39,485 nucleotides of DNA, taken from NCBI GenBank assembly GCA_945918795.1, contig CAMEIT010000018.1, positions 1 through 39,485 of the forward strand. Reading direction: 5' to 3'. Position numbers and translations under genes: made by a program. A model generated the notes under the pieces. The model had not been told where the DNA came from. It saw only the letters and a program-made list of their open reading frames with translations, and did no database searches. How positions within the stretch are numbered: position 1 is the first letter of the stretch; each line of letters starts with the position of its first letter. Below, piece after piece: positions 11,179 to 37,830 of this stretch. The stretch is from an uncultured Clostridia bacterium (lineage in GTDB: Bacteria; Bacillota; Clostridia; HGM11327).

Positions 11179-11216
11179 TCGTTATCAGTATACAATAATA
11201 CAGTATGGAGTTTTGT

Positions 11217-13304
11217 ATGTCTTTTATTGGTAAAAAGAGAAAGTTGATTACGTTGCTTGTTGTGGCGGCTATTACGGCTTGCTTTCTGACGACTGCGGCA
11301 TATGCGGATACGTCTGAAACAAACATAACAAAAAATATTATAATAGGCGGCGATTTTGAGAGCGGACTCGATTATTGGTCTGAATATTCATGGTACGAGG
11401 ATGTTTCGCAGTTCAAGGTGGACAAAGAGGTATTCAGAAGCGGAAGTGCCTCATTCCTGATTTCAAGCAAGTCTGAAAATGACGCAAGAATTATTCAGGA
11501 AATTCAGGTTGCGCCATCTGCTTATTATACCGTTACGGCGTATATTAAGACCGAAAACGTTCCTGCCTCCGATGCCGACAATTATCGTGTCGGAGCAACA
11601 ATTTCAATTATAAACACAACATTCCGTTCGTCATCCGTATGCGGAGATACAGATTGGACAAAGGTTGAATTTTCATTCTACACGGCAAAAGATATGAATT
11701 CTGTTCAGCTGTGCTTTACTCTCGGCGGATACGGCTCTTTAAACAGCGGAAAAGCTTGGTTTGACGATATATCCGTAAAGCGTGTTTATTCAAAGCCGTC
11801 GCAATGCTTTGTGCTCGAATCCACAAAAACAGATACATCATCCGGCTCCGGGCATTGGGCAGGTTATCCGCTTTCGGAAGAGCCGGACAGCATAAAATGG
11901 ATAGCTTTTGCGTTTGCGTGGTTTATTGTTCTGGCGGCGCTTGCGATTGCATTTGCCGAGACAGGCGACATATCGGGCAATGGCAAGAAAACAAGACGCA
12001 CGTTCATATTTGCGCTTGTGGGTGCATTTTTGTTCAGGTGCGTGGTGGCAATGTTTACCCCGTCATTCGGACCTGACATAGGACTTTTCAAATATTGGGG
12101 TTGGTATGCTTCTACGGATCTTTTCAATATGTATTCCGGTGAACTCTCATTTTTGGATTATCCGCCGCTTTATATGTATGCGCTTGCACCGATAGGAGCT
12201 ATTGCAAACGCTCTGCAGGATGTAATGGGCGGTGCAATTACAACTCTGATTCTGAAAATGCCGTCTATTTTGGCGGATATTATTACATCGATACTTCTTT
12301 ATAAATTTGCAAAGCGTTATCTTGACAGCAAGTGGGCGATGGTAATCGGATTGATTTATGCGGCAAATCCTGCAACATGGATCAATTCTGCGGCATGGGG
12401 ACAGGTCGATTCGTTCTTTACAATGCTCATTGTTATCGAAGTGATGTGCCTTACAAACAAGAAATGGGCAGGTGCGGGAATATTCTTTGCGCTCATGGTG
12501 CTCATGAAGCCTCACGGAATAATTTTTACCCCTGCAATAGGTCTTATTCTTCTTATCGAGCTTATCAGAAATAAGAATTGGAAGCCTATTGTGATTTCCG
12601 TATCGAGCGGAATCCTGACTTTGGCGGCACTTCTTTTGCCGTTCTATATAAGAACAAACTTTGAAAATCCGACGTGGATAGTTGAATTGTATGCCGGAAC
12701 TATCGGACAGTACAATTATGCTACAATGAATGGATTCAATTTCTGGGCAATGCTCGGATTTAATATTACAAGCGCCGAAACAGTATGGCACGGATTAACA
12801 TTTGCTCAATGGGGAATGATAGGAATAGGATTTTCCATTGTGCTTGCAATAGTATTTGCCGTTTTCGGCTCAAGAAAAAATTCAAAGGTAAAAGACGCTT
12901 TGCCTTCGATTCTTTCGCTTGTGCTCATAGTATCTGTATTTACATTTGCACATAAAATGCACGAGAGATATATGTTTGCGGCAATGGCGCTCGCACTTAT
13001 GGCATTTATTCAGTGCAAGGACAGGTGGTACTTGTATTTGTCCATGATATTCGCGGCTGTTGTATTTGCCAACACATACATGATTTATAATCTTTACATT
13101 ATGTGGACATATTGTTATCCTGCATCGGGAGACATTGCAGTGACTATCATCAGCACGATTGAGGTTATATCCTTTGTACTTTTGGTTATTACAACCGTAA
13201 AGGTTCTGATTATGAACAAAATTTCGTCCCCGAAATCGGTACTTGAATTGAACACAAATAAAACAAAAGGAGAAGCTGATTATGACGACGCAAAAAACAG
13301 TTAA
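11217..13304 (+). CDS. Gpi18-like mannosyltransferase with extracytoplasmic carbohydrate-binding-like domain
   Basis: This 695-residue protein starts with a signal-anchor (residues about 9-31, ending AAYA), followed by a roughly 170-residue beta-sandwich resembling CBM4/9-type modules: IIIGGDFESGLDYWSEYS near its start and KAWFDDISVKR at its end are typical of that fold. From about residue 225 it is polytopic, with ten or more membrane segments, and resembles the Gpi18-related mannosyltransferases (COG5542) of the GT-C type: FKYWGWYASTDLFNMYSG, DYPPLYMYALAPIG, and AANPATWINSAAWGQVDSF, which contain the expected acidic and aromatic residues. It would use a lipid-linked sugar on the outer face of the membrane. 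ATG 11217, 6 bases after GGAG, is preferred to ATG 11205. The next gene overlaps its end by 23 bases. Confidence 0.75.
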   Translation: MSFIGKKRKLITLLVVAAITACFLTTAAYADTSETNITKNIIIGGDFESGLDYWSEYSWYEDVSQFKVDKEVFRSGSASFLISSKSENDARIIQEIQVAPSAYYTVTAYIKTENVPASDADNYRVGATISIINTTFRSSSVCGDTDWTKVEFSFYTAKDMNSVQLCFTLGGYGSLNSGKAWFDDISVKRVYSKPSQCFVLESTKTDTSSGSGHWAGYPLSEEPDSIKWIAFAFAWFIVLAALAIAFAETGDISGNGKKTRRTFIFALVGAFLFRCVVAMFTPSFGPDIGLFKYWGWYASTDLFNMYSGELSFLDYPPLYMYALAPIGAIANALQDVMGGAITTLILKMPSILADIITSILLYKFAKRYLDSKWAMVIGLIYAANPATWINSAAWGQVDSFFTMLIVIEVMCLTNKKWAGAGIFFALMVLMKPHGIIFTPAIGLILLIELIRNKNWKPIVISVSSGILTLAALLLPFYIRTNFENPTWIVELYAGTIGQYNYATMNGFNFWAMLGFNITSAETVWHGLTFAQWGMIGIGFSIVLAIVFAVFGSRKNSKVKDALPSILSLVLIVSVFTFAHKMHERYMFAAMALALMAFIQCKDRWYLYLSMIFAAVVFANTYMIYNLYIMWTYCYPASGDIAVTIISTIEVISFVLLVITTVKVLIMNKISSPKSVLELNTNKTKGEADYDDAKNS

Positions 13305-15108
13305 GCAAGATCCTGCATTAAGCCATGCAAAAGACACGTCTTATTATAAAATGAAAATGAGCAAAAAGGATTGGATTATCGTTATCATAATGATGATAGT
13401 ATACAGTGTCGTTGCATTTATCAATCTCGGTTCTTTTGATACGCCTCAGACATATTGGACGACTTCAAAAACGGGAGAGTATATTGTAGTTGACCTCGGA
13501 GAAGAGTACGATATATCGAGAATCAATATTTACAGCGGTGTTAAGCCTAACGGAAAAGTTACATTTTACTATTACAACAAGGACATAATGGACTATTCCC
13601 GTGCCGTATCGACGGATTCAATAGACGTATTCAAGATATATTCTTACGATATAAGTGCGAAAAATCCGATTAAAACACGCTATCTGAAAATCGTTACCAT
13701 AAAAACGGGGTTGTCAATAGGTGAGATCGGCATATTTGTCGGAGACAGCAAGGAGCCGCTCAGAAACGTCAAGATAATAGAGAGCACGGCAGTTGAGGCA
13801 GGAGGCGAAGTTGCGGCGCTTTTTGATGAGCCTGACTGTATTCCGTATTCGCGCGATTTCATGAACAGCACGTATTTTGACGAGTTATACCACGGAAGAA
13901 CGGGATATGAGTACCTTGAGGGAATAAGACCGTACGAATGGACGCACCCGCCGCTCGGCAAGCTTCTTATTGCGGCAGGAATGGCGATATTCGGAAAAAA
14001 TATGTTCGGTATGCGTGCAATGGGAACGATATTCGGCGTTCTTATGATACTTTTGATGTATATGTTCGGCAAGAAGGTTACAAAGTCAAGCTTTGGCGGA
14101 TTTGCGGCGGCATTCCTTATGATGTTTGATTTTATGCACTTCACACATTCGAGAATTTCGTCAATAGACGTTTATGCCGTTACATTCGTAATACTCATGT
14201 TCTATTTCATGTATGATTATTACGTGAGCCGCCCGCAGAATCTCGTCTTGAAAAAGAGTATGTGGTACCTGCTGTTCTCGGGCTTATTCATGGGCTGTGC
14301 AATATCGGTAAAATGGAATACGGCGTACGGAGTAGTCGGTCTTGCGCTCTTGTTTTTAATTACAATACTCGGACAATACAGAGACTGCTGTGTGCTTGAG
14401 AACAACAACCTTTCCGATGAATACCCCTGGACGAAGAAATTTGGCTCTGATTATGTTGTGAAGATAGGTATTTTATGTGTATTTGCATTTATTGTTCTTC
14501 CGATATCGATTTACATGGCTACATTTATTCCGAATATGACTGTTACAGACGGAACGGCGTATACATTTAAGGATATTTTGAGCCTGCAGGAATCGATGTA
14601 CAGCTATCACAGCGGACTTGATGCAACGCACAGCTATCAGTCGGCGTGGTATACTTGGCCTGTAATAGGCAGACCGCTTTATATGTATGCTTCATCGGAT
14701 AACCCGGAGGGAATAAGAGGCACAATAGTAACAATGGGCAACCCTGCTGTATGGTGGGGCGGCGTTGTTGCGGTTATAATGTCAATAGCCATTGCATTCC
14801 GCAAGAAAGACAGACGCATGGTGCCTGTATTTATTGCAATCGCATCGCTTTATCTGCCTTGGGTGTTTGTTTCGAGATGTACGTTTATATATCACTATTT
14901 CCCGGTACTCCCGTTTGTGATACTTTGCAGTGCGTACGCACTCAACTACATCAAAAACAATATAAAACACGGGAAGTATTTCATAATTGCGTACTTCGCG
15001 GTGACGGCAATACTTTTTGTAATATTCTATCCTGTTTTAACGGGAATACCTGTTGAGAATTCTTACATTATGAATTTTACACGTTGGTTCCCGTCATGGT
15101 CGTTCTGA
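13282..15108 (+). CDS. PMT/GT39 family protein O-mannosyltransferase-like, with discoidin-like insert
   Basis: This 608-residue polytopic GT-C glycosyltransferase is of the protein O-mannosyltransferase (GT39) type. After one membrane segment (residues 32-50) comes an extracytoplasmic beta-sandwich of about 110 residues resembling an F5/8 type C (discoidin) fold: TGEYIVVDLGEEYDISRINI and TRYLKIVTIKTGLSIGEIGI. The PMT catalytic loop follows: NSTYFDELYHGRTGYEYLEG, with the essential Asp-Glu pair, then YEWTHPPLGKLL. The later loop WPVIGRPLYMY and membrane segments also fit. It likely transfers mannose from polyprenyl-phosphate-mannose to exported proteins. It overlaps the Gpi18-like gene, so the two are translationally linked and probably act in one pathway. 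Confidence 0.85.
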   Translation: MTTQKTVKQDPALSHAKDTSYYKMKMSKKDWIIVIIMMIVYSVVAFINLGSFDTPQTYWTTSKTGEYIVVDLGEEYDISRINIYSGVKPNGKVTFYYYNKDIMDYSRAVSTDSIDVFKIYSYDISAKNPIKTRYLKIVTIKTGLSIGEIGIFVGDSKEPLRNVKIIESTAVEAGGEVAALFDEPDCIPYSRDFMNSTYFDELYHGRTGYEYLEGIRPYEWTHPPLGKLLIAAGMAIFGKNMFGMRAMGTIFGVLMILLMYMFGKKVTKSSFGGFAAAFLMMFDFMHFTHSRISSIDVYAVTFVILMFYFMYDYYVSRPQNLVLKKSMWYLLFSGLFMGCAISVKWNTAYGVVGLALLFLITILGQYRDCCVLENNNLSDEYPWTKKFGSDYVVKIGILCVFAFIVLPISIYMATFIPNMTVTDGTAYTFKDILSLQESMYSYHSGLDATHSYQSAWYTWPVIGRPLYMYASSDNPEGIRGTIVTMGNPAVWWGGVVAVIMSIAIAFRKKDRRMVPVFIAIASLYLPWVFVSRCTFIYHYFPVLPFVILCSAYALNYIKNNIKHGKYFIIAYFAVTAILFVIFYPVLTGIPVENSYIMNFTRWFPSWSF

Positions 15109-15298: not shown

Positions 15299-15327
15299 TT
15301 GAAAATAATTTGTAATGGTGTTATAAT
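15299..15327 (+). promoter_or_regulatory. Strong promoter of the agr-like operon
   Basis: TTGAAA (15299-15304), a 17-base spacer, and a perfect TATAAT (15322-15327). The first gene starts at 15389. No AgrA-type direct repeats (such as ACAGTTAAG-like boxes) are obvious upstream; the region before it is a T-rich run. Confidence 0.75.
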
Positions 15328-15388: not shown

Positions 15389-15964
15389 ATGTTATTATTT
15401 TTTATAATACCAATAGTGCTTGCGGGCGTAAGAAAATACAGCCCTAAATATGCGTTTACATCGTGGGAGCTTTATCCGTTGTATGCGGTTGAGCTGGTTC
15501 ACATTTTCTTTCAGGTAAACGCTTATTTCGGGAATTATCAGTTCGTGCAATATTCGTCGTACATTCAGACGGCGATGAATATTTCACTGTTGCTGCCGAT
15601 AATTTCCAAAAAGCTTTATGTGACTGCTTTGGTCGGCTCAGGCTCTGTGCTTGCAGGCTCTGCGCTTAATGCGATTGTAATTAATGCCAACGACGGACAT
15701 ATGCCTGTGTATGCAACATTGAGCAAATTGACGGGATTTTTTCACGAGACAGCGCTCGGCTCGACAGTGGACGAGCTTCATATCATAATGAGCGATGCTA
15801 CGAGACTTAATTTTCTCGGTGATTATATTGATTTGGGCTTTTGCATAATGAGCCCGGGAGACATATTGATCCACTTTTTTGTGTCAGCCGTTATTTACTG
15901 CACTGTTAAATCGGCTGCAATTAATGAAAAGAAAGTTATAACGGAAGGCAAACAGAATGGATAG
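15389..15964 (+). CDS. DUF5317-like membrane protein
   Basis: This 191-residue membrane protein has five or so hydrophobic segments. It resembles DUF5317 proteins, small membrane proteins of unknown role that sit beside Agr-type genes or sensor kinases in Clostridia. Recognisable stretches are SALNAIVINANDGHMPVYA, a pattern (N-x-x-V-I-x-x-N-x-G-x-M-P) typical of the family, and LNFLGDYIDLGFCIMSPGDI near the C-terminal end. ATG 15389 follows AAAGGA at 7 bases. The gene overlaps the next one by 8 bases and is the first of the operon that includes agrB and agrD. Confidence 0.65.
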   Translation: MLLFFIIPIVLAGVRKYSPKYAFTSWELYPLYAVELVHIFFQVNAYFGNYQFVQYSSYIQTAMNISLLLPIISKKLYVTALVGSGSVLAGSALNAIVINANDGHMPVYATLSKLTGFFHETALGSTVDELHIIMSDATRLNFLGDYIDLGFCIMSPGDILIHFFVSAVIYCTVKSAAINEKKVITEGKQNG

Positions 15965-16499
15965 TAGAATTGTTTTGTTTTTGGTAGACAGCATTTTAGG
16001 CTATTTTCTTCAGAGCATGGGAGCGGTTGTAAGCATACATATTGCTTCAAAACGCCATATAAAAGCAAGAGATTTGCTTTTGATGTCCATTGTATTCGGC
16101 ACTGTGGCGTATTTGTGCAGATGTATTTCGGAGTACATAGGTTTTGGCTTGCATACGATATTGATGATAGCGGCATTTGTTCTTATTGCATACGCTTGGC
16201 TTAAAACAAATATCATCAATAATATATTTGCGGTTGTAAGCTCATTGATAGTCATCGCGTTGTATGAAGGACTGAATTATGTAACATTAAGCGCGATACT
16301 CGGTGAAGAATCGTTGAAGATTATTCTTGAGGGCGCCGATGTAAGAAATCAGATATTGAAGTCGTTGCTCGGCTGTCCTACAAATATAATGTTATTGATA
16401 ACGGCATTTATTGTATATAAAGTTGTAATGCTGCGCATAAGCGCAAAGGAGCTTGACGGTGGAAAATCTGGCACGGTCGATAGCGAACAAAATAAGTAA
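15957..16499 (+). CDS. AgrC-like sensor membrane domain without a kinase
   Basis: This 180-residue membrane protein has five or six hydrophobic segments. It resembles the N-terminal sensor part of AgrC-type GHKL histidine kinases of Clostridia: the order KARDLLLMSIVFGTVAYLCR, GFGLHTILMI, and VSSLIVIALYEGLNYV, followed by a short loop and LGCPTNIMLL. No DHp or ATPase domain follows; the frame ends after a short charged tail (ELDGGKSGTVDSEQNK), and agrB begins within its last codons, so this is not a simple frameshift remnant. It could bind the autoinducer as a decoy or immunity protein, help AgrB, or signal through a separate kinase. These options are inference. Confidence 0.6.
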   Translation: MDSRIVLFLVDSILGYFLQSMGAVVSIHIASKRHIKARDLLLMSIVFGTVAYLCRCISEYIGFGLHTILMIAAFVLIAYAWLKTNIINNIFAVVSSLIVIALYEGLNYVTLSAILGEESLKIILEGADVRNQILKSLLGCPTNIMLLITAFIVYKVVMLRISAKELDGGKSGTVDSEQNK

Positions 16500-17097
16500 A
16501 AAGCTTGGTTATGATGATGAAAAAACCGCTGTCATTGCATACGGCTTGATAGGGCTTTTTCAGTTCATTATAATATTGTGTGCCTGTGCGTTAATAGGTC
16601 TTGTTTTCGGTTTCTTCTGGGAGGCAATGATTATATTTTGGGGCGCGGGACTGTTAAGGCGCGTTATGGGCGGCGCACATTCAAGCGGTTTTTACAGCTG
16701 CCTTTTCATAAGCGTTGTTTGCATTTGCATTTTGGCGTATATTTGCTCTTTGATTAAGGTTTATTCGGATAGCTTCTATTTTCTTTTGGCGTATTTGGTT
16801 ATATATGCAGCGGCTTTTGTTATAGTGTACAAGCTTGCTCCTGTTGAATCTCCAAACAAACCGATAAAAGAAAGTAAACGTGTGCGTTTGCGCAAGAAGG
16901 CGCTGATGACGCTCGGTATATTTGCAATTCTTACAGTTGCACAATGGATCATTAATAATTTATGTGATTTTAAGTTTTACATATCCTGTGCGCTGACTGT
17001 AAGCGTTATGTGGCAGACGTTTTTGCTTCTTCCTGCGGGCAAAGCGTTTGTATCTGCCGCAGACCGTATTTTCAATGCAGGAAAGCATACTAAATAA
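16459..17097 (+). CDS. agrB: AgrB, accessory gene regulator membrane protease
   Basis: AgrB is the membrane cysteine endopeptidase that removes the C-terminal tail of AgrD and forms the thiolactone ring. The 212-residue length is right. The catalytic pair is visible in RRVMGGAHSSGFYSC: His74 and Cys81, seven residues apart as in S. aureus AgrB (H77 and C84). Four to six membrane segments follow. GTG 16459, seven bases after AAAGGAG, is preferred to TTG 16453, which is too close to that site. It overlaps the preceding AgrC-like gene by 41 bases and lies 64 bases before agrD. A kinase and response regulator are not in the operon. Confidence 0.93.
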   Translation: MENLARSIANKISKKLGYDDEKTAVIAYGLIGLFQFIIILCACALIGLVFGFFWEAMIIFWGAGLLRRVMGGAHSSGFYSCLFISVVCICILAYICSLIKVYSDSFYFLLAYLVIYAAAFVIVYKLAPVESPNKPIKESKRVRLRKKALMTLGIFAILTVAQWIINNLCDFKFYISCALTVSVMWQTFLLLPAGKAFVSAADRIFNAGKHTK

Positions 17098-17161
17098 GAA
17101 ATATTTTCACATATCCAAGTGATGTGCTGATTATATTAATAAAGCGAAAGGAGCTCATGAA

Positions 17162-17287
17162 ATGAAGACGAAGTTATTAGCTGTAGTATCAGTAATAGCA
17201 ACATTGTTTGCAACATTAGCGGCAACATCTGCTTGTTTCTGGTGGCTGTATCAGCCTGAAGAGCCCTCCTCTTTGCAGGACAGATAA
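17162..17287 (+). CDS. agrD: AgrD, cyclic lactone autoinducer peptide precursor
   Basis: This 41-residue gene is easy to miss. It has the three-part structure of AgrD: an amphipathic or hydrophobic leader (MKTKLLAVVSVIATLFATLA), the signal core beginning at Cys25 (residues 24-31 ACFWWLYQ), and an acidic tail starting PEEPSSLQ. The 'Cys - aromatic residues - YQPEEP' pattern is that of the clostridial cyclic lactone autoinducer family. The mature peptide would be a thiolactone from Cys25 to Leu29 or Tyr30; the exact ring end cannot be read from sequence. Start ATG 17162 follows AAAGGAG at 10 bases; the nearer ATG at 17157 runs into a stop after two codons. The stop lies within the left arm of a hairpin. 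Confidence 0.9.
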   Translation: MKTKLLAVVSVIATLFATLAATSACFWWLYQPEEPSSLQDR

Positions 17288-17306
17288 TTAAATAATTAAT
17301 TATCTG
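17281..17306 (+). repeat. AT-rich hairpin overlapping the agrD stop codon
   Basis: CAGATAATTA (17281-17290) pairs perfectly with TAATTATCTG (17297-17306), with a 6-base loop. The agrD stop TAA (17285-17287) is inside the left arm. It may protect the 3' end or assist the terminator that follows. Confidence 0.55.
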
Positions 17307-17319
17307 AAGCCATCCCGGG

Positions 17320-17345
17320 AAAGCCGACATTTTGTCGGCTTTCTT
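17320..17345 (+). terminator. Terminator after agrD
   Basis: AAAGCCGACA (17320-17329) pairs perfectly with TGTCGGCTTT (17333-17342), with a 3-base loop and a short T-containing tail. It separates agrD from the c-di-GMP gene starting at 17389, although readthrough is possible. Confidence 0.75.
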
Positions 17346-17388
17346 GGCGAAACACAAGTTTTTGACAATAAATATAGGGGAGATATTT

Positions 17389-19041
17389 ATGCAAAAATGG
17401 AAAAATGACGAAAAAAATAAGATAACTACAAAATTCTTTGCACTTAAAATTCTTGTTCTGTTTCTTTGTTTGATACCTTTGTTTCAGAAGTACTTTTCTC
17501 AATCGGCAAACGCCGTATTGGGTAACCTCGATATAAAGGCAATCGCAATGTACCTCGGAATCATATTAATGGTAACATTTCTATGGTGGGTATTCAACAG
17601 CCGCTTCAAAGATATTACGTTCATAAAATGGTTGGAAATATTCGTAATGTACGGAATGTGCCTGATGAATGTTTTGGTAAGCGGCGCTCATATGAGCTAC
17701 TCAAAATTCGTATTCGGGTTCATAATCATTGTTTACACAATGGATTTCGGCATGATTTACGGTTATGTAACGGCGGCTGTCTCCGCGGTCACTATTCTCA
17801 TTATAGATATTGCTTATTATAACGGCGGCGGAATAAACCCGTATCTTCAGAACGACATTGCTTTGACTGCCATGTTTTTTGCAATGGCATGGATTTTGGG
17901 ATATTACGTTAAAACTGAGAGCGAACACATTGAAGATATGTGGAAGCTGGCAAATCTTGACGGCTTGACCAATACGTATAATCACAGATGCTTTTACGAG
18001 ATAATGACAGAGCTTTTCGATGAGGACAAAAACGCCGAAAAGCCGTTATCGTTTCTCATGATCGATATTGATTATTTTAAGAATTACAACGATACATTCG
18101 GACATCAAAAGGGCGACGAAATACTTGTTAAGATTACGAGCATAATAAAAAATACGCTCACCGACAAAGATTATCTTTGCAGGTATGGCGGAGATGAGTT
18201 TGCCGTCATATACTGTGATACGAATAAAGAAACGGCTGTAAAGCGAGCAAACGATCTGCGCGATATTGTAAAGCAATATAACTTTTACGGCGAGGAAATG
18301 CTCCCGTCGGGCAATCTTACAATATCGGTAGGTGTGTGCTCACGCCAGGGCACTGATGACACGGTCAGAGCGCTTATCGAAAGAGCTGACATGGCGCTTT
18401 ATAAAGCAAAGTGTTTCCGCAAAAACAGAGTTGAGGTGTACTCATCGATATTTGACAGATTTACGCATCTTGACGCAAAAAGTGATGAAAGCATGATTTC
18501 CATAAAGTCGCTTATCACTATAATCAACTCAAGAGACAGATATACATATAATCACACCGAAAGAGTTGTGTTTTATTGCGAGGCATATGCGGATTATTAC
18601 AATCTCTCCGAAGAGGACAGAAGAAAGCTTGTATACAGCGCATATCTGCATGATATAGGTAAAATAAACATTTCAAAGCAGACGCTCATATCAGAGGGTA
18701 AGCTCAGTGATGCCGAATGGGAGGAAATCAAAAGGCATTCGGCTGACGGCGCGGATATAATAAGGCATATGAATAATCTTGATGATGTTGCTCAGATAGT
18801 TTTACAGCATCATGAGCATTATGACGGGAGTGGTTATCCGAACGGCCTCAAGGGAGACGAGATTGAGCCGCTTGCGAGAATTTTGTCGGTTGCTGACAGC
18901 TTTGACGCTATGACTTCAAAAAGACCGTATCAGGATAAAAAGGCAATTAATGATGCCTTTGCCGAAATAAGGCGTTGTGAGGGTGTTCAGTTTGATCCCG
19001 TGTATGCAGAAAAGTTCATAGAAGTCATGTGCAATATTTAA
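17389..19041 (+). CDS. Membrane-anchored GGDEF and HD-GYP c-di-GMP enzyme
   Basis: This 550-residue protein has five or six N-terminal membrane segments (residues about 18-175), a GGDEF domain (about 185-355) and an HD-GYP domain (about 365-550). The diguanylate cyclase signature is intact: RYGGDEF, with GGDEF at 267-271. The inhibitory I-site RxxD is missing (TDKD in its place). The HD-GYP domain has HDIGK (421-425), an HH pair (474-475) and DGSGYP (479-484), so it should hydrolyse c-di-GMP. Both activities are thus predicted in one protein. ATG 17389 follows GGGGAG; the frame is open upstream into the agrD terminator. Its place directly after agrD, beyond a terminator, suggests but does not prove a link to quorum sensing. 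Confidence 0.9.
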   Translation: MQKWKNDEKNKITTKFFALKILVLFLCLIPLFQKYFSQSANAVLGNLDIKAIAMYLGIILMVTFLWWVFNSRFKDITFIKWLEIFVMYGMCLMNVLVSGAHMSYSKFVFGFIIIVYTMDFGMIYGYVTAAVSAVTILIIDIAYYNGGGINPYLQNDIALTAMFFAMAWILGYYVKTESEHIEDMWKLANLDGLTNTYNHRCFYEIMTELFDEDKNAEKPLSFLMIDIDYFKNYNDTFGHQKGDEILVKITSIIKNTLTDKDYLCRYGGDEFAVIYCDTNKETAVKRANDLRDIVKQYNFYGEEMLPSGNLTISVGVCSRQGTDDTVRALIERADMALYKAKCFRKNRVEVYSSIFDRFTHLDAKSDESMISIKSLITIINSRDRYTYNHTERVVFYCEAYADYYNLSEEDRRKLVYSAYLHDIGKINISKQTLISEGKLSDAEWEEIKRHSADGADIIRHMNNLDDVAQIVLQHHEHYDGSGYPNGLKGDEIEPLARILSVADSFDAMTSKRPYQDKKAINDAFAEIRRCEGVQFDPVYAEKFIEVMCNI

Positions 19042-30897: not shown

Positions 30898-30933
30898 TTT
30901 AACGGGCGTTAAAAATCTAAAAGGAGCATGGGA

Positions 30934-32637
30934 ATGAAGAGATGTTTAAGCGCAATTTTGGCGGCGGTACTTTTGTGCTCAATGACGGCATGTAGCCCGA
31001 GCACAAAGTCAAAAACAGTTTCAGTCGATGAATTGTCATCGTATACGATAGTATATCCGCAAAGCTATAAGGATTGGCAAATGACGGAAGTAGAGCTTCT
31101 TCGTGACATAATCGAGCACATAACGGGAACGAGAATAAACGCAGTACCGGATTCAGAGCCGGAAGTAAAGAATGAAATAATATTTGCAAGCTCTGCAAGA
31201 GAAACGTCTTATGATAACACTGTGGACACTTTTGAAAGCAGAATGGATTACATAATAGCTGTTGACGGAGACGATATCGTTCTGGGCGGACAGAATTATT
31301 ATTCCGATATGCGCGCGGCATATGACTTTATAAACAATTATATAGGCTATGACGACATAAAAGATGAATATTTAGAGCCCCAAAAGCAGATAACCGGCTC
31401 AAACAGCACGATATGGAAAAAACCGGAGCTTTATGTAATGGGTTCAAATTTAACCGCAGAGCCTTTTACAGAGGTGTGGCACGTAAAAGACTTTGTTGAC
31501 TGCAATTTCAATTTACTGCAAATAATGAGCATGAAATATACGGATACGGGAGTTCGTGACGTTGCAACATGGTGCGCAAGGTTCGGTATAGAGCTGTTTT
31601 ATTATCCTGCTACGGACAGAGAAGCAAAACAGGTAATAATTCCGTGTGAAGAGGACTTGATTGAAAATCCTGCAGTGTGGGGACTTTATATATATGATGA
31701 GCCTGCAACGATTGAGCAAAATATTCTTTGGAGCACTGTTGTTGCAAATGCGAAGGAAAGGTTTGAAAAGTACGGCTGGACTATATATATAAATGTTGCC
31801 TTCAATACGTATGATTATAACGATGTTGACGGGTGGAACACCTCAAGCATATGGAGAGAATATTATTCAGACCTTGATATATTGTCGTTTGACGCATATC
31901 CGTATCAGAATAAATTGGGTGTGAGAGACCGTTATCTGTGCATGACGTGGGAGTTCGCGGCGAATCTTGCCAAAGAGCTCGGACAGGAGCTATTCATTTA
32001 CATTGATGCGTATAATCTGGCTAACAGAGGCTACTGCGACAAGATGTTCAGAACGCACGCATATTTGTGCTTGTGCTTCGGTGCAGACGGAATAGAGTAT
32101 TTCCAATACGGAGATGCGTCCCCATATCATCACACCGAGGGCGACTGGACAAAGGGAAGTCTTGTAAATTACGATTTCTCCAAAAACGAGTATTATTATG
32201 ATGCACAAAAGGTAAACGGCGAGCTGAAAAAAATCATGCCGATTTACTCTCAGTATGAAAACGTCGGTGCATACGTTATAAATCCTAAAGAGGATGACCT
32301 GCTTGTCTGCCTGAAAAATCCTTGTGATGATTTCGGAGTTATTGAAGACGTAAATGACGAGCTCAACATGATGACGTTCGGAGATACATCGACATTCCTT
32401 GTAGGATGCTTTGAGAAAAAAGAAGGCGACGGCAAAGCGTTCATAATAATGAATTTTGACGCACTGACAGACATAAGCTACGGCACTGAGATTATATTAC
32501 CCACAAAGCTTAAAATAAACGGTGAAAAGGTAACGTGTTACAGAGGCGGTGAGCCTACGGTATTGGAGCCTGATGAGGACGGTTATTATTCATTCAGAAT
32601 ACCGAACGGTGAGTGCCTGTTTGTGACGGTAGACTGA
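30934..32637 (+). CDS. Lipoprotein, glycoside-hydrolase-like, paralog B1
   Basis: This 567-residue lipoprotein has lipobox SMTAC (Cys20), with the same three-part architecture as paralog A1. The B-type differs in the barrel: YIYDEPATIEQ (DEP at 255-257), then LSFDAYPYQNKLGVRDRY, YIDAYNLANRGYCDKMFRTH and GIEYFQYGDASPYH. The last of these is a likely sugar-binding strand with a Glu that paralog A1 lacks in that form. The start is ATG 30934, 7 bases after AAGGAG, rather than ATG 30928, which is too close to it. A palindrome TTAACGGGCGTTAA lies between A1 and B1. Its last 138 bases are almost identical to those of B2. Confidence 0.75.
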   Translation: MKRCLSAILAAVLLCSMTACSPSTKSKTVSVDELSSYTIVYPQSYKDWQMTEVELLRDIIEHITGTRINAVPDSEPEVKNEIIFASSARETSYDNTVDTFESRMDYIIAVDGDDIVLGGQNYYSDMRAAYDFINNYIGYDDIKDEYLEPQKQITGSNSTIWKKPELYVMGSNLTAEPFTEVWHVKDFVDCNFNLLQIMSMKYTDTGVRDVATWCARFGIELFYYPATDREAKQVIIPCEEDLIENPAVWGLYIYDEPATIEQNILWSTVVANAKERFEKYGWTIYINVAFNTYDYNDVDGWNTSSIWREYYSDLDILSFDAYPYQNKLGVRDRYLCMTWEFAANLAKELGQELFIYIDAYNLANRGYCDKMFRTHAYLCLCFGADGIEYFQYGDASPYHHTEGDWTKGSLVNYDFSKNEYYYDAQKVNGELKKIMPIYSQYENVGAYVINPKEDDLLVCLKNPCDDFGVIEDVNDELNMMTFGDTSTFLVGCFEKKEGDGKAFIIMNFDALTDISYGTEIILPTKLKINGEKVTCYRGGEPTVLEPDEDGYYSFRIPNGECLFVTVD

Positions 32638-32676
32638 TTTAACAATTGTTAGATATACTCAAAAGGGAGACTAAAA

Positions 32677-34386
32677 ATGAAGAAATATTTAAGCGCAATT
32701 CTTGCGGCGGTGCTTTTGTGCTCAATGACGGCGTGCAGTCCGAGTGCGAAGTCAAAAACAGTTTCGGTCGATGAATTGTCATCGTATACGATAGTATATC
32801 CGCAAAGCTATAAGGAATGGCAAATGACAGAGGTGGAGCTACTGCGTGATACAATCGAGCATATAACCGGAACGAGAATAAATGCCGTGCCCGATTCAGA
32901 ACCGGAGGCAAAGCATGAAATAATATTTGCAAGCTCAAACAGAAAAACGTCTTATGATAACACAGTGGATGCTTTTGCAAGCAGAATGGACTACATAATA
33001 GCCGTTGACGGAGATGATATTGTTCTCGGTGGGCAGAATTATTATTCCGATATGCGTGCGGCATACGACTTTATAAACAATTATATAGGCTATGATGATA
33101 TTGAAGATAAATATAGTGAGCCTGAAAAGCAGATAACGGGCTTAAACACTACGATATGGAAAAAGCCCGAGCTTTACATAATGGGAACAAACTTTGCTTG
33201 CGGACCGTTTACCGAGAAATGGCAGGTAAAGGATTTCGTTGACTGCAATTTCAATTTATTGGAGGTGTCACAGCCTAAAAACACCGATGAAGGAGTGCGC
33301 GATGTTGCAACATGGTGCGCAAGATTCGGTATAGAATTCTTCTATTATCCGGCAACGAACAAGGAAACTAAGCAGGTTGCAATACCTTATGAAGAGGACT
33401 TGATCGAAAATCCTGCCGTATGGGGACTTTATATTGTTGACGAGCCGTCATCAACGGAGCAAAATATATTCTGGAGCACTGTTGCGGCAAACGCAAAGGA
33501 AAGATTTGACAAATACGGCTGGACTATATATGTAAATACGGCGCTTAATTCGTACGATTTGAATTATGATGAGGGCTGGAATGCCGATACTGTCGGCGCA
33601 TGGAAAAAGTATTACTCAAACCTCAGCGTATTTTCATTTGACGCATATCCTTATCAGAACAAATTTGATGTAAGAGAGCGTTATACCTGCATTACGTGGG
33701 AGCACGCGGCAAATCTTGCCAAAGAGCTCGGACAGGATTTATTCATTTACATTGATTCGTATAACCTGGCAAACAGAGGCTACTGCGACAAGATGTTCAG
33801 AACGCACGCATATTTCAGCTTGTGCTTCGGAGCAGACGGAATAGAGTATTTCCAATACGGAGATGCGTCGCCGTACTATGACAGAGAGGGAGATTGGACA
33901 AAAGGAAGCCTTATTAATTACGACTTCTCAAAAAACGAGTATTATTATGATGCGCAAAAGGTAAACGGCGAGCTTAAAAAGCTTATGCCGATTTACGATC
34001 AATATGAAAACGTAGGCGTATACGTCATAAATCCGAAAGAGGGAGACAATATGGTTTGTCTGAATGACCCTTGCGACGATTTCGGCGTTATAAAAGACGT
34101 AAATGACGAGCTTAACCTGATGACGTTCGGAGATACATCGACATTACTTGTAGGATGTTTTGAGAAAAAAGAGGGCGACGGCAAAGCGTTTATATTAATG
34201 AATTTTGATCCACTGACGGAAATAGGTTACGGTACTGAGCTTATATTGCCCACAAAGCTTAAAATAAACGGCGAAAAGGTAACGTGTTACAGAGGTGGCG
34301 AGCCTACGGTATTGGAGCCTGATGAGGACGGTTATTATTCATTCAGAATACCGAACGGCGAGTGCCTGTTTGTGACGGTAGATTGA
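32677..34386 (+). CDS. Lipoprotein, glycoside-hydrolase-like, paralog B2
   Basis: This 569-residue lipoprotein has lipobox SMTAC (Cys20). Candidate catalytic segment VDEPSST (DEP 255-257), FSFDAYPYQNKFDVRERY, YIDSYNLANRGYCDKMF and IEYFQYGDASPYY. The gene is a mosaic: bases 32968-33123 are identical to paralog B3 at all but one position, whereas bases 34249-34386 differ from B1 at only five silent positions. This points to gene conversion or recent recombination. ATG 32677 follows AGGGAG. Between the shared ends, the loops around residues 170-200 and 265-290 vary, which is where substrate contacts would be expected. Confidence 0.75.
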   Translation: MKKYLSAILAAVLLCSMTACSPSAKSKTVSVDELSSYTIVYPQSYKEWQMTEVELLRDTIEHITGTRINAVPDSEPEAKHEIIFASSNRKTSYDNTVDAFASRMDYIIAVDGDDIVLGGQNYYSDMRAAYDFINNYIGYDDIEDKYSEPEKQITGLNTTIWKKPELYIMGTNFACGPFTEKWQVKDFVDCNFNLLEVSQPKNTDEGVRDVATWCARFGIEFFYYPATNKETKQVAIPYEEDLIENPAVWGLYIVDEPSSTEQNIFWSTVAANAKERFDKYGWTIYVNTALNSYDLNYDEGWNADTVGAWKKYYSNLSVFSFDAYPYQNKFDVRERYTCITWEHAANLAKELGQDLFIYIDSYNLANRGYCDKMFRTHAYFSLCFGADGIEYFQYGDASPYYDREGDWTKGSLINYDFSKNEYYYDAQKVNGELKKLMPIYDQYENVGVYVINPKEGDNMVCLNDPCDDFGVIKDVNDELNLMTFGDTSTLLVGCFEKKEGDGKAFILMNFDPLTEIGYGTELILPTKLKINGEKVTCYRGGEPTVLEPDEDGYYSFRIPNGECLFVTVD

Positions 34387-34425
34387 TTTTAACAAATGTT
34401 AGACAAACAAAAAAGGAGAGTAAAA

Positions 34426-36144
34426 ATGAAAAAATACGTAGGTGCAGTTTTGACGGCAGCGCTTTTGTGCTCAATGACGGCGTGTAGCTCGAGCACAAAA
34501 TCAAAAACAGTTTCGGTCGATGAATTGTCATCGTACACGATAGTATATCCGCAAAGCTATAAGGAATGGCAAATGACGGAGGTAGAGCTTCTGCGCGACA
34601 CAATCGAGCACATAACGGGAACAAGAATAAATGCCGTGCCCGATTCCGAGCCCGAGGCAAAGCATGAAATAATATTTGCAAGCTCGACAAGAAAAACATC
34701 TTATGAGAGCGAAATCGATGCTTTTGCAAGCAGAATGGACTACATAATAGCCGTTGACGGAGATGATATTGTTCTCGGTGGGCAGAATTATTATTCCGAT
34801 ATGCGTGCGGCATACGACTTTATAAACAATTATATAGGCTATGACGATATTGAAGATAAATATAGTGAGCCTCAAAAGCAGATAACGGGCGTCACCAGCA
34901 CGATATGGAAAAAGCCCGAGCTTTATTTAATGGGTTCAAACTTATCATGCGGACCGTTCAGCGAGGTTTGGCACGTAAAGGATTTTGCGGATTGCAATTT
35001 CAATCTGCTTCAAATATCACAGCAAATGTATACTGATACGGGAGTGCGTGACGTTGCAACATGGTGCGCCAGATTCGGCATAGAGCTGTTTTATTATCCT
35101 GCTACGGACAGAGAATCAAAACAGGTAATAATCCCGTGCGAAGAGGACTTGATCGAAAATCCTGCTGTATGGGGGCTTTATATTGTTGACGAGCCGTCAT
35201 CAACGGAGCAAAATATATTCTGGAGCACTGTTGTCGCAAATGCAAAAGAGCGTTTTGACAAGTACGGCTGGACTGTTTATGTAAACACATTTTTCAGCAC
35301 TGTAAATACGGTTAACGGAATAGACCCCGAAACGGGCGAATGGAATGACGGAAAAACGTGGGAGAAATATTATTCAGACCTTTCCGTGCTTTCATTTGAC
35401 GCATATCCGTATCAGAGTAAATTCCAATGGCGTGACCGCTACACCTGCCTTGTATGGGAGCAGGCATCAAAGCTTGCCAAAAAACTCGACCAGGAATTGT
35501 TTATATACATTGATGCTTACAATTTGACAAACAGAGGCTACTGTGATAAAATGTTCAGGACGCACGCATATTTGTGTATGTGCTTCGGTGCAGACGGAAT
35601 AGAGTATTTCCAATACGGAGATGCGTCTCCGTACTATGACAGAGAGGGCGATTGGACAAAGGGAAGCCTTGTGAATTACGATTATTCAAAGAATGAGTAT
35701 TATTATGATGCGCAAAAGGTAAACGGCGAGCTTAAAAAGCTTATGCCCATTTACGCTCAGTATGAAAATGTTGGCGCGTACGCAATAAATCCCAAGGAAG
35801 AGGATAACTCATCATATTTGGCAGATCCGTACTATGAATTCGGCGTTATAGAAGACGTTAATGACGACCTCAATGAGCAGACATTCGGCGAACCTGTAAC
35901 GTATTTGGTTGGATGTTTTGAGAAAAAAGAGGGCGACGGTAAGGCATTTATTTTGATGAATTTCGAACCGCTGACTGATTATGTTTACGGTATGGATTTT
36001 ACATTCCCGCTTAAGCTTAAAATCAACGGTGAAAAGGTAACGTGCTATAAGGGCGGTGAGCCTGTTGTAATGGAGCCTGATGAGGACGGATATTATTCGT
36101 TTAAGATGTTTAACGGAGAATGCGTATTTGTCACTGTTGATTAA
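34426..36144 (+). CDS. Lipoprotein, glycoside-hydrolase-like, paralog B3
   Basis: This 572-residue lipoprotein has lipobox SMTAC (Cys20). The frame is open from 34396, but ATG 34426 follows AAAAGGAG and matches the signal peptides of B1 and B2. The barrel has VDEPSST (255-257), LSFDAYPYQSKFQWRDRY, YIDAYNLTNRGYCDKMF and the shared IEYFQYGDASPYY. An insertion near residue 285 (VNTVNGIDPETGEWNDG) makes one loop longer than in B1 and B2. The C-terminal part has diverged (ADPYYEFGVIEDVNDDLNEQ; ends NGECVFVTVD). It ends 21 bases before paralog A2. Confidence 0.75.
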   Translation: MKKYVGAVLTAALLCSMTACSSSTKSKTVSVDELSSYTIVYPQSYKEWQMTEVELLRDTIEHITGTRINAVPDSEPEAKHEIIFASSTRKTSYESEIDAFASRMDYIIAVDGDDIVLGGQNYYSDMRAAYDFINNYIGYDDIEDKYSEPQKQITGVTSTIWKKPELYLMGSNLSCGPFSEVWHVKDFADCNFNLLQISQQMYTDTGVRDVATWCARFGIELFYYPATDRESKQVIIPCEEDLIENPAVWGLYIVDEPSSTEQNIFWSTVVANAKERFDKYGWTVYVNTFFSTVNTVNGIDPETGEWNDGKTWEKYYSDLSVLSFDAYPYQSKFQWRDRYTCLVWEQASKLAKKLDQELFIYIDAYNLTNRGYCDKMFRTHAYLCMCFGADGIEYFQYGDASPYYDREGDWTKGSLVNYDYSKNEYYYDAQKVNGELKKLMPIYAQYENVGAYAINPKEEDNSSYLADPYYEFGVIEDVNDDLNEQTFGEPVTYLVGCFEKKEGDGKAFILMNFEPLTDYVYGMDFTFPLKLKINGEKVTCYKGGEPVVMEPDEDGYYSFKMFNGECVFVTVD

Positions 36145-36165
36145 CATAAATCAAGGAGATTTAAC

Positions 36166-37830
36166 GTGAAAAAAACATTTAAAATTTTAATGGCGTCGGC
36201 AGGCGTGCTGTCTGTAATGACGTCATGTACGCCTCAACCGAGCCCGACTGAAAAAGGTGTTCAGGTATCTGAATTGGCAGATTACACAATAGTGTATCCA
36301 AGCGAGTATACAGAATTCAGAATGGATATTGTAAGCGAGCTTCAAGACGTAATCGAGCATTTAACAAACGTTAGAATAAACGCAATACCGGATACAGAAC
36401 CCGAAGCCGAAAAGGAAATAATACTTGCAAGCTCAAAGAGAACCACTTCTTTTGATGCCGAGATCGATGATTTTGCAAGCCGCATGGACTATATCGTTGC
36501 AAAGGACAATGACAATATTGTTCTCGGCGGACAGAATTATTATTCCGATATGCGCGCAGTGTATGATTTTATGAGCAATTATCTCGGCTATGACAGCCTT
36601 GAAGGCACATATTCGGAGCCGACAAAAAACATTGCGGGAACCTACGTCAATATATACAAGGAACCTGAATTTATAATTCAGGCTGCGTGCTGGGCGACAC
36701 TTTTTGACAAGGAATCGTATATAAAGGATATTCGCGATGCAAGCTTTAATATGCTCATGATAGATTTTTCTATGTCGCCTGAGAATACGCACAAGCTTGC
36801 AAAGTGGTGCGCAAAATATGACGTCAGCATTATGGTCAACACGTGCGGCAGTGCGGTTATGCCCAATGTTGATATTTACAGTGATTGCCCGATTGTATGG
36901 GGCGGCTATGTATATGATGAACCGAGCGAGGATCAATTTCAGATGGTGCATGACCTGTGCGATAAGTTCAACGCAGATTATTCGAAGTACGGATTTAAGC
37001 CGTTTGTGAATTTTGCGGGAGAAAGAGCTGATTTTGTCAAGGAAACGGATCTATTCGGCAATATCGATGTTATGTCATACGACTGGTATATTTTCGTAAA
37101 CAATAATCCCGAAGGCTGGTGCGGCACTCAAGGCGAGGGCAGCTATTATCTCAAGCGTATGCAGACATATATGCAGGTAGCAAAAGAGCGCGGCATGGAA
37201 TTCTGGACGTATATCCAGGCATATCGCCGCAGTGGCGGAATATTTGTGGCCGAAAAGGCTTACAAATGGCAGATGTACATGAATCTTTGCTTCGGCTCAA
37301 AGGCAATGCTCTATTTTATATACGCAAATCAAAGCGAGAATGAGCCGAATTGGGGCGATTTCAGTACGCTTGTAGTCAACCGTGATATGTCAAAGGGCGA
37401 TAACTATTATTATGCCAAAGAGGCAAACGAGGAAATTCTCAAGGTATACGACATATTGAAGGATTACGACAATGTAGGCGCATACACGTATTTTACTCGC
37501 GAGTCTCAGCTGTATACGGAGTTTGATGAATATAAGGATTTCGGAGTTATTGAAGACATAGTGGATATGAACAGCACTTTGTTCTCAAATTCGTCATATC
37601 TTGTAGGCTGCTTTGAAAAGAAAGACGGCAACGGAAAAGCATTTATATTCATGAATCTCGAAATTATAAACGATGCTGATCTTTTCAGCTCCCCTGTAAA
37701 GCTTAAAATAAACGGTGAGAATATAAAGTGCTATATAGACGGCGAGATTGTCGACGTTTCACCTGATGAGAACGGATACTATACTGTGAAAGCAGGAAAC
37801 GGACAATGTATGCTGTTTACCGTAGGATAA
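36166..37830 (+). CDS. Lipoprotein, glycoside-hydrolase-like, paralog A2
   Basis: This 554-residue lipoprotein has lipobox VMTSC (Cys21). It is A-type, sharing with A1 FRMDIVSELQDVIEH, FIIQAACWATLFDKE, VYDEPSE (DEP at 251-253), VMSYDWYIFVNN, YIQAYRRSGGIFVAEKAYKW and GAYTYFTRESQ. The start is GTG 36166, 8 bases after AAGGAG. It is the last of the array; no binding-protein, transporter or regulator gene is present within it. A DNA glycosylase gene follows after 13 bases and may be read through from this transcript. Confidence 0.75.
   Translation: MKKTFKILMASAGVLSVMTSCTPQPSPTEKGVQVSELADYTIVYPSEYTEFRMDIVSELQDVIEHLTNVRINAIPDTEPEAEKEIILASSKRTTSFDAEIDDFASRMDYIVAKDNDNIVLGGQNYYSDMRAVYDFMSNYLGYDSLEGTYSEPTKNIAGTYVNIYKEPEFIIQAACWATLFDKESYIKDIRDASFNMLMIDFSMSPENTHKLAKWCAKYDVSIMVNTCGSAVMPNVDIYSDCPIVWGGYVYDEPSEDQFQMVHDLCDKFNADYSKYGFKPFVNFAGERADFVKETDLFGNIDVMSYDWYIFVNNNPEGWCGTQGEGSYYLKRMQTYMQVAKERGMEFWTYIQAYRRSGGIFVAEKAYKWQMYMNLCFGSKAMLYFIYANQSENEPNWGDFSTLVVNRDMSKGDNYYYAKEANEEILKVYDILKDYDNVGAYTYFTRESQLYTEFDEYKDFGVIEDIVDMNSTLFSNSSYLVGCFEKKDGNGKAFIFMNLEIINDADLFSSPVKLKINGENIKCYIDGEIVDVSPDENGYYTVKAGNGQCMLFTVG

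Follow-up and report, generated by a model that had tools for sequence, protein, structure and literature searches.

The DNA analysed here (the window) is a stretch of 39,485 nucleotides from an uncultured Clostridia bacterium (contig CAMEIT010000018.1). Positions 15389-19041 carry five genes on one strand, encoding a DUF5317 protein, a 180-residue membrane protein here termed X, AgrB, AgrD and a membrane-bound enzyme with GGDEF and HD-GYP domains. With a probability of about two in three, this locus constitutes an Agr-type peptide signaling module in which cyclic di-GMP (c-di-GMP) turnover takes the place of the phosphorelay as output, and X would read the peptide together with, or through, the membrane domain of the enzyme. 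This reading was built from sequence: the gene set and its order, the homology of X to AgrC-type sensors, the intact catalytic motifs, a membrane domain specific for agr loci, and the swap of that domain onto a kinase. All five parts were recovered by domain matches at the places named in an earlier annotation made from the letters alone (the original prediction). The overlaps it had described between DUF5317 and X (8 nt) and between X and AgrB (41 nt) were correct, and neither an AgrC kinase nor AgrA, which it had reported missing, was found in the locus. The features are as follows.

15299-15327, forward strand: promoter-like site TTGAAA-17-TATAAT, sigma-70-like, 11 of 12 consensus positions, TG before the -10 element, about 60 nt upstream of the first gene
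15389-15964, forward strand: DUF5317 membrane protein, 191 amino acids (aa) (PF17248, E 5.5e-20)
15957-16499, forward strand: X, 180 aa, predicted AgrC-type sensor domain that has five long membrane helices and no kinase part (family profiles and AlphaFold2 model)
16459-17097, forward strand: AgrB, membrane peptidase maturing AgrD (PF04647, E 2.5e-35)
17162-17287, forward strand: AgrD, precursor of 41 aa (TIGR04223, E 6.8e-13)
17315-17347, forward strand: stable RNA hairpin in the gap that separates agrD from the enzyme gene (fold z-score -4.26), without a strong U-run
17389-19041, forward strand: membrane GGDEF-HD-GYP enzyme, 550 aa (PF00990, 4e-41; PF13487, 4.4e-39)

The signal end of the module has the usual agr components. 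AgrB is translated from a GTG start located 7 nt after AAAGGAG and contains the His/Cys pair within the motif GGAHSSGFYSC. AgrD has a standard leader, the ring cysteine and an acidic, proline-containing tail (PEEP); its core reads SACFWWL followed by YQPEEP, and the pattern C-x4-[YHN]-QPxEP is common to the other modules. A ring of Cys-Phe-Trp-Trp-Leu (CFWWL) is predicted, its size presumably being that of other clostridial AgrD peptides.

X did not match any Pfam or NCBIfam family above cut-off, and profiles were built first from six members and later from 62 sequences. With the six-member profile, X was detected directly 5' of AgrB also in genomes lacking DUF5317, and the N-termini of frames of about 450 residues were matched as well. 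These frames encode kinases of the GHKL type, in which an N-box and an H-box of AgrC type (ERHDFYNHL) were recognized, and they match the kinase module of Staphylococcus aureus AgrC (phmmer E 1.7e-6). When 590 membrane-type open reading frames were searched with the 62-sequence profile, scores above 8 bits were obtained only for X proteins and for N-termini of GHKL/AgrC-type kinases (the best reached 66-69 bits, and six kinases adjoining AgrB scored 16-27 bits). Two further AgrB-AgrC pairs matched with 4e-8 and 5e-8 (L232/L233). The AlphaFold2 model of X was of high confidence (predicted local distance difference test score, pLDDT, 93.6; predicted template modelling score 0.85); a fold search of the PDB gave no significant match, and when solved structures were searched by sequence, only the AgrC kinase module was returned. 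By profile comparison, X is thus a putative AgrC-type sensor that stands alone, its chain stopping short of the kinase part, as had been proposed from the window alone; a lack of similarity to AgrC sensors, which would have refuted that proposal, was not observed. X as a decayed AgrC was rejected, since dozens of species share a kinase-less X of 145-192 aa, and this conservation also bears out the earlier view that the lack of a kinase is no recent loss.

X-like proteins were also encountered in other settings. In some loci (L229:3394-4254, L230:3556-4437, L231:3395-4282), an AgrD gene unaccompanied by AgrB adjoins a gene for an X-like protein of 286-295 aa that has no kinase and ends in a helical tail. 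Near-identical X-type GHKL kinases of 452 residues were found in genomes from three different families (L197-L200; f53, f25, f86), which suggests recent transfer. In two loci (L076:6620-9289, L078:6497-9209) an AgrB-DUF5317 pair faces an XRE regulator and an X-like membrane protein of 265-270 aa, with no HD-GYP gene adjoining; in the latter locus a 330-aa gene, possibly a recombinase, lies beside the pair.

Conservation of the module was analyzed in two surveys. In the first, the positions of DUF5317 and AgrB were mapped in 391 genomes of the class of the host, and the regions were then read. DUF5317 was located about 0.5-0.7 kb upstream of AgrB in several families, and the module was seen in six genomes, with the full order DUF5317-X-AgrB-AgrD-GGDEF/HD-GYP in three (G267, G248, G090) and all partners present behind a leading enzyme gene in two (G013, G050). 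In the second, named genomes were scanned with the DUF5317 alignment of the module, which yielded 53 loci with the whole or part of it, two of them being contigs of G013 and G050. As the scan was seeded with DUF5317, the presence of that gene is not independent evidence, while the co-occurrence of the other four is; a scan of the named-genome contigs with AgrB as single-protein query gave no matches. Identical gene order and strand were kept in 41 of the 53 loci. Most of the remainder had a rearranged order, were cut by a contig end or contained an additional X. Two lineages retain the partners in another order, with the enzyme first (L074/L146, L075/L145) or with DUF5317 last (L116, L124), and some loci have two X genes beside one agrB (L129, L192, L195). 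Carriers include Clostridium tertium, C. paraputrificum, C. frigoris, C. akagii, Eubacterium multiforme, Acetobacterium bakii, Bittarella, Neobittarella and many metagenome-assembled genomes. Loci with only distant DUF5317 similarity (L151-L155) were without agr genes, and in surveys at order and family level, which covered only four genomes, the locus was absent from three relatives that are 78-84% complete. The c-di-GMP gene as a chance neighbor was rejected, because the five genes recur in one order in dozens of species. The original prediction was right about the presence of the enzyme gene, but it described as adjacent what is a conserved member of the module.

The enzyme consists of a membrane domain (residues ~1-190), a GGDEF domain (188-347) and an HD-GYP domain (374-537). 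Its motifs GGDEF, HDIGK and HHEHYDGSGYP are intact, and GG[DE]EF and HD-GYP motifs are likewise intact in nearly all complete enzymes of the modules. Conservation of the enzyme supports the suggested feeding of the signal into c-di-GMP levels. The membrane domain is modeled with six helices, the last of which runs into GGDEF (pLDDT 88.5). It has no homology to X, and no significant match was obtained in the PDB; the membrane diguanylate cyclase ImcA, at E 0.48, was not used as evidence. A profile of this domain, built only from GGDEF-HD-GYP members, gave 99-144 bits on 11 kinase matches, nothing between 10 and 50 bits, and values below 0 bits on ordinary DUF5317-linked HD-GYP proteins near secA. 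In this search, the domain was found only in agr-linked proteins. The kinases (608-629 residues; membrane domain-PAS-HisKA-HATPase) lie downstream of X-AgrB-AgrD in other clostridia. In a tree of the membrane domain they form one branch inside the GGDEF-HD-GYP versions (support 92/91), grouped with enzymes from loci lacking DUF5317 (97/91). One signal cassette has thus been joined to two outputs, a c-di-GMP enzyme or a kinase, an argument for a flow of the signal from cassette to effector. X travels with this conserved membrane effector and is therefore better explained as a receptor subunit than as the decoy or immunity receptor that had been offered as an option.

Outside agr loci, DUF5317 was encoded directly 3' of an HD-GYP gene in 21 of the 30 best matches, usually overlapping it and upstream of secA. 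DUF5317 is therefore likely an HD-GYP partner that was recruited into the agr locus, a working hypothesis for a family of unknown function. It is not essential, since some agr loci with GGDEF-HD-GYP output lack it (L188, L191, L193, L194, L196). The loci read for this setting were L011-L040, L079-L083, L085 and L151-L155; in some families, DUF5317 is part of proteins of 540-920 residues adjoining hpf/secA.

Covariation was analyzed in 47 non-redundant complete modules. X was the most variable protein (median identity 32%), and the membrane domain of the enzyme was nearly as variable (34%). After correction with the HD-GYP domain, X distances tracked the AgrD ring (partial r 0.14, p 0.008), whereas the other four parts (GGDEF, membrane domain of the enzyme, DUF5317 and AgrB) stayed short of the 0.05 level, a pattern that gives weak support to X as the candidate peptide-contacting part. 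Beyond the HD-GYP baseline, X, DUF5317 and the enzyme membrane domain correlated with one another (partial r 0.42-0.50), and slightly less strongly with AgrB (0.33-0.43). A membrane complex would give such a pattern, but so could rate effects.

In the proposed mechanism, AgrB would cleave and cyclize AgrD and help to export it, and the peptide would accumulate outside the cell. There it would be read by X, with or via the six-helix membrane domain of the enzyme, and binding would shift the balance between GGDEF synthesis and HD-GYP breakdown of c-di-GMP within one protein. DUF5317 would serve as an accessory membrane subunit of the enzyme. We infer peptide binding by X, a complex of X, DUF5317 and the enzyme, control of the enzyme by the peptide and a preference of the peptide for one of its activities, with either a rise or a fall of c-di-GMP as the possible result. 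Several points weigh against this reading. The correlation of X with the ring is weak and nominal, being one of five tests. The strong X-profile scores fall on kinases without a neighboring AgrB, while those on AgrB-adjoining AgrC kinases are modest (16-27 bits, with a composition bias of 14-31). No other member diverges as far as the X of the window, in which the PE motif seen in most others is missing. The host genome is a draft (122 contigs, 94.8% complete) that could hide a kinase, the host c-di-GMP inventory covers GGDEF and HD_5 domains, and X might serve AgrB rather than sense the peptide.

The last point leads to the strongest alternative, in which the six-helix membrane domain of the enzyme, or of the swapped kinase, senses the peptide and X is a partner of AgrB in maturation or export, or else an immunity or decoy receptor. 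X lies directly 5' of agrB, usually overlapping it (median -14 nt), and is kept whichever output is used, and the membrane domain is common to both outputs and nearly as variable as X. However, X resembles AgrC-type sensors and not AgrB or known export factors, only its distances follow the AgrD ring while those of AgrB do not, and some loci have two X genes per agrB. The probability of this alternative is put at about one-fifth.

The host assembly (2.40 Mb) was inspected for components acting elsewhere. The AgrB of the window is the only one in the genome, and no AgrC-type kinase was found; five HATPase_c_5 matches all lie beside OmpR-type regulators, and none has an X-like sensor. A second full agr system in this genome was rejected, and the kinase-less system described in the original prediction, which an AgrC/AgrA pair elsewhere would have called into question, held within this 94.8% complete genome. 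One AgrA-like LytTR response regulator was detected as an unlinked orphan on contig C23 (L008:1072-2610), next to a Spo0A-like response regulator gene. It is improbable that the peptide acts via an unlinked two-component pair, for example this orphan and an unseen kinase, with the c-di-GMP gene merely co-transcribed. The LytTR regulator and the draft state of the assembly would allow it, and orphan agrBD genes with an unlinked receptor are known, such as VirS in C. perfringens (PMC7492741), but besides the lack of a detected AgrC-type kinase, the enzyme is conserved in the module across many genera even where gene order differs, and no protein without a link to agr was found to have its membrane domain. 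Least probable is an antagonist or antimicrobial peptide without self-signaling, with X as immunity protein: a small cyclic peptide with a hydrophobic ring, a dedicated maturation protein and a small adjoining membrane protein would suit it, yet X is a sensor-type domain, a signaling enzyme always adjoins, and AgrD keeps the standard leader and PEEP tail.

The same genome contains a single HD_5 protein, the enzyme of the window, and two GGDEF matches, of which only that of the enzyme has an intact motif; the second, on contig C13 (L207:1434-2492), has the degenerate motif YEEDC instead. One c-di-GMP-I riboswitch was matched (57.1 bits; C39:5979-6064, L206), upstream of a protein of 133 residues with a C-terminal membrane helix. 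Judged by the components detected, the host would synthesize its c-di-GMP through the agr module. Tentatively, and with somewhat less than even odds, a wider proposal can be made: without phosphotransfer, a kinase-less AgrC-type receptor would form one membrane complex with the enzyme and would gate in it the sole diguanylate cyclase and HD-GYP phosphodiesterase detected in this cell. Population density would thereby set the whole c-di-GMP state; the same cassette could also be attached to an orphan kinase, possibly of the Spo0A type, and would represent a candidate class for the missing clostridial Agr receptors.

Compared with agrBDCA of S. aureus and the clostridial agr systems, the module shares the AgrB and AgrD families, a Cys-ring precursor with an acidic, proline-rich tail and the AgrC-type sensor domain. 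It differs in that the sensor lacks a kinase, AgrA is absent, a c-di-GMP enzyme that has a membrane domain of its own forms the output, and DUF5317 is added. Because it is agr-like at the signal end but lacks the AgrC kinase and AgrA at the response end, the module is a variant of agr-type quorum sensing and not a member of agrBDCA. Diffusible signal factor (DSF) sensing (RpfC/RpfG, RpfR) also connects a quorum signal to c-di-GMP breakdown or synthesis, but uses a fatty-acid signal and unrelated sensor proteins in Gram-negative bacteria. In the C. botulinum agr-1 system, the orphan kinases CBO0336 and CBO0340, which we take to adjoin agrBD1, would provide output through a kinase for Spo0A-type phosphorylation, whereas the output of the module is c-di-GMP turnover. 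The kinase-output version described above matches these proteins in size and layout (five transmembrane helices-PAS-HisKA-HATPase, 615 and 617 aa), and they have been listed as possible Spo0A activators (PMC11210211). Agr1 of C. difficile (agrB1D1) likewise lacks agrC and agrA, and the authors infer that there must be an as yet unidentified transmembrane sensor or that signaling dispenses with a histidine kinase (PMC10602386, PMC8534292), but only two genes are described there. In C. difficile 027, agrACDB affects c-di-GMP genes indirectly, through AgrA-dependent transcription of EAL/GGDEF genes (PMC3754575); agr thus touches c-di-GMP there too, but transcriptionally rather than by a built-in enzyme.

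In the literature searched, DUF5317 was not linked with agr, papers naming agrBD together with HD-GYP or diguanylate cyclase deal with different subjects, and no agr locus with a built-in c-di-GMP enzyme was found described, in line with the original prediction, although a prior description in subscription journals is possible. Clostridia often have agr loci that lack agrC and agrA, and the perception of their peptides is an open question, as stated for C. difficile AgrD1 (PMC10602386). A conserved cassette of agrBD, a kinase-less AgrC-type sensor and a membrane effector (c-di-GMP enzyme or orphan kinase) makes this question directly testable. Many clostridia carry the five-gene block. The module would connect a peptide signal of Gram-positive bacteria to c-di-GMP directly and by a built-in path, so that cells may convert crowding straight into c-di-GMP levels.

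At the RNA level, no riboswitch or other RNA family was found at the module (Rfam, nine loci). The sigma-70-like site upstream is a consensus match alone, and such sites are no commoner in the region than expected by chance. A hairpin at the place corresponding to 17315-17347, in the gap between agrD and the enzyme gene, is present in nearly all other modules and may determine how much enzyme mRNA is made relative to agrD mRNA. In the region immediately preceding the module, at 11205-15108, the window encodes two neighboring PMT-type glycosyltransferases with carbohydrate-binding domains (CBM_4_9; F5/8 type C), and four tandem, related genes for lipoprotein-like proteins of 554-582 aa are located at 30928-37830.

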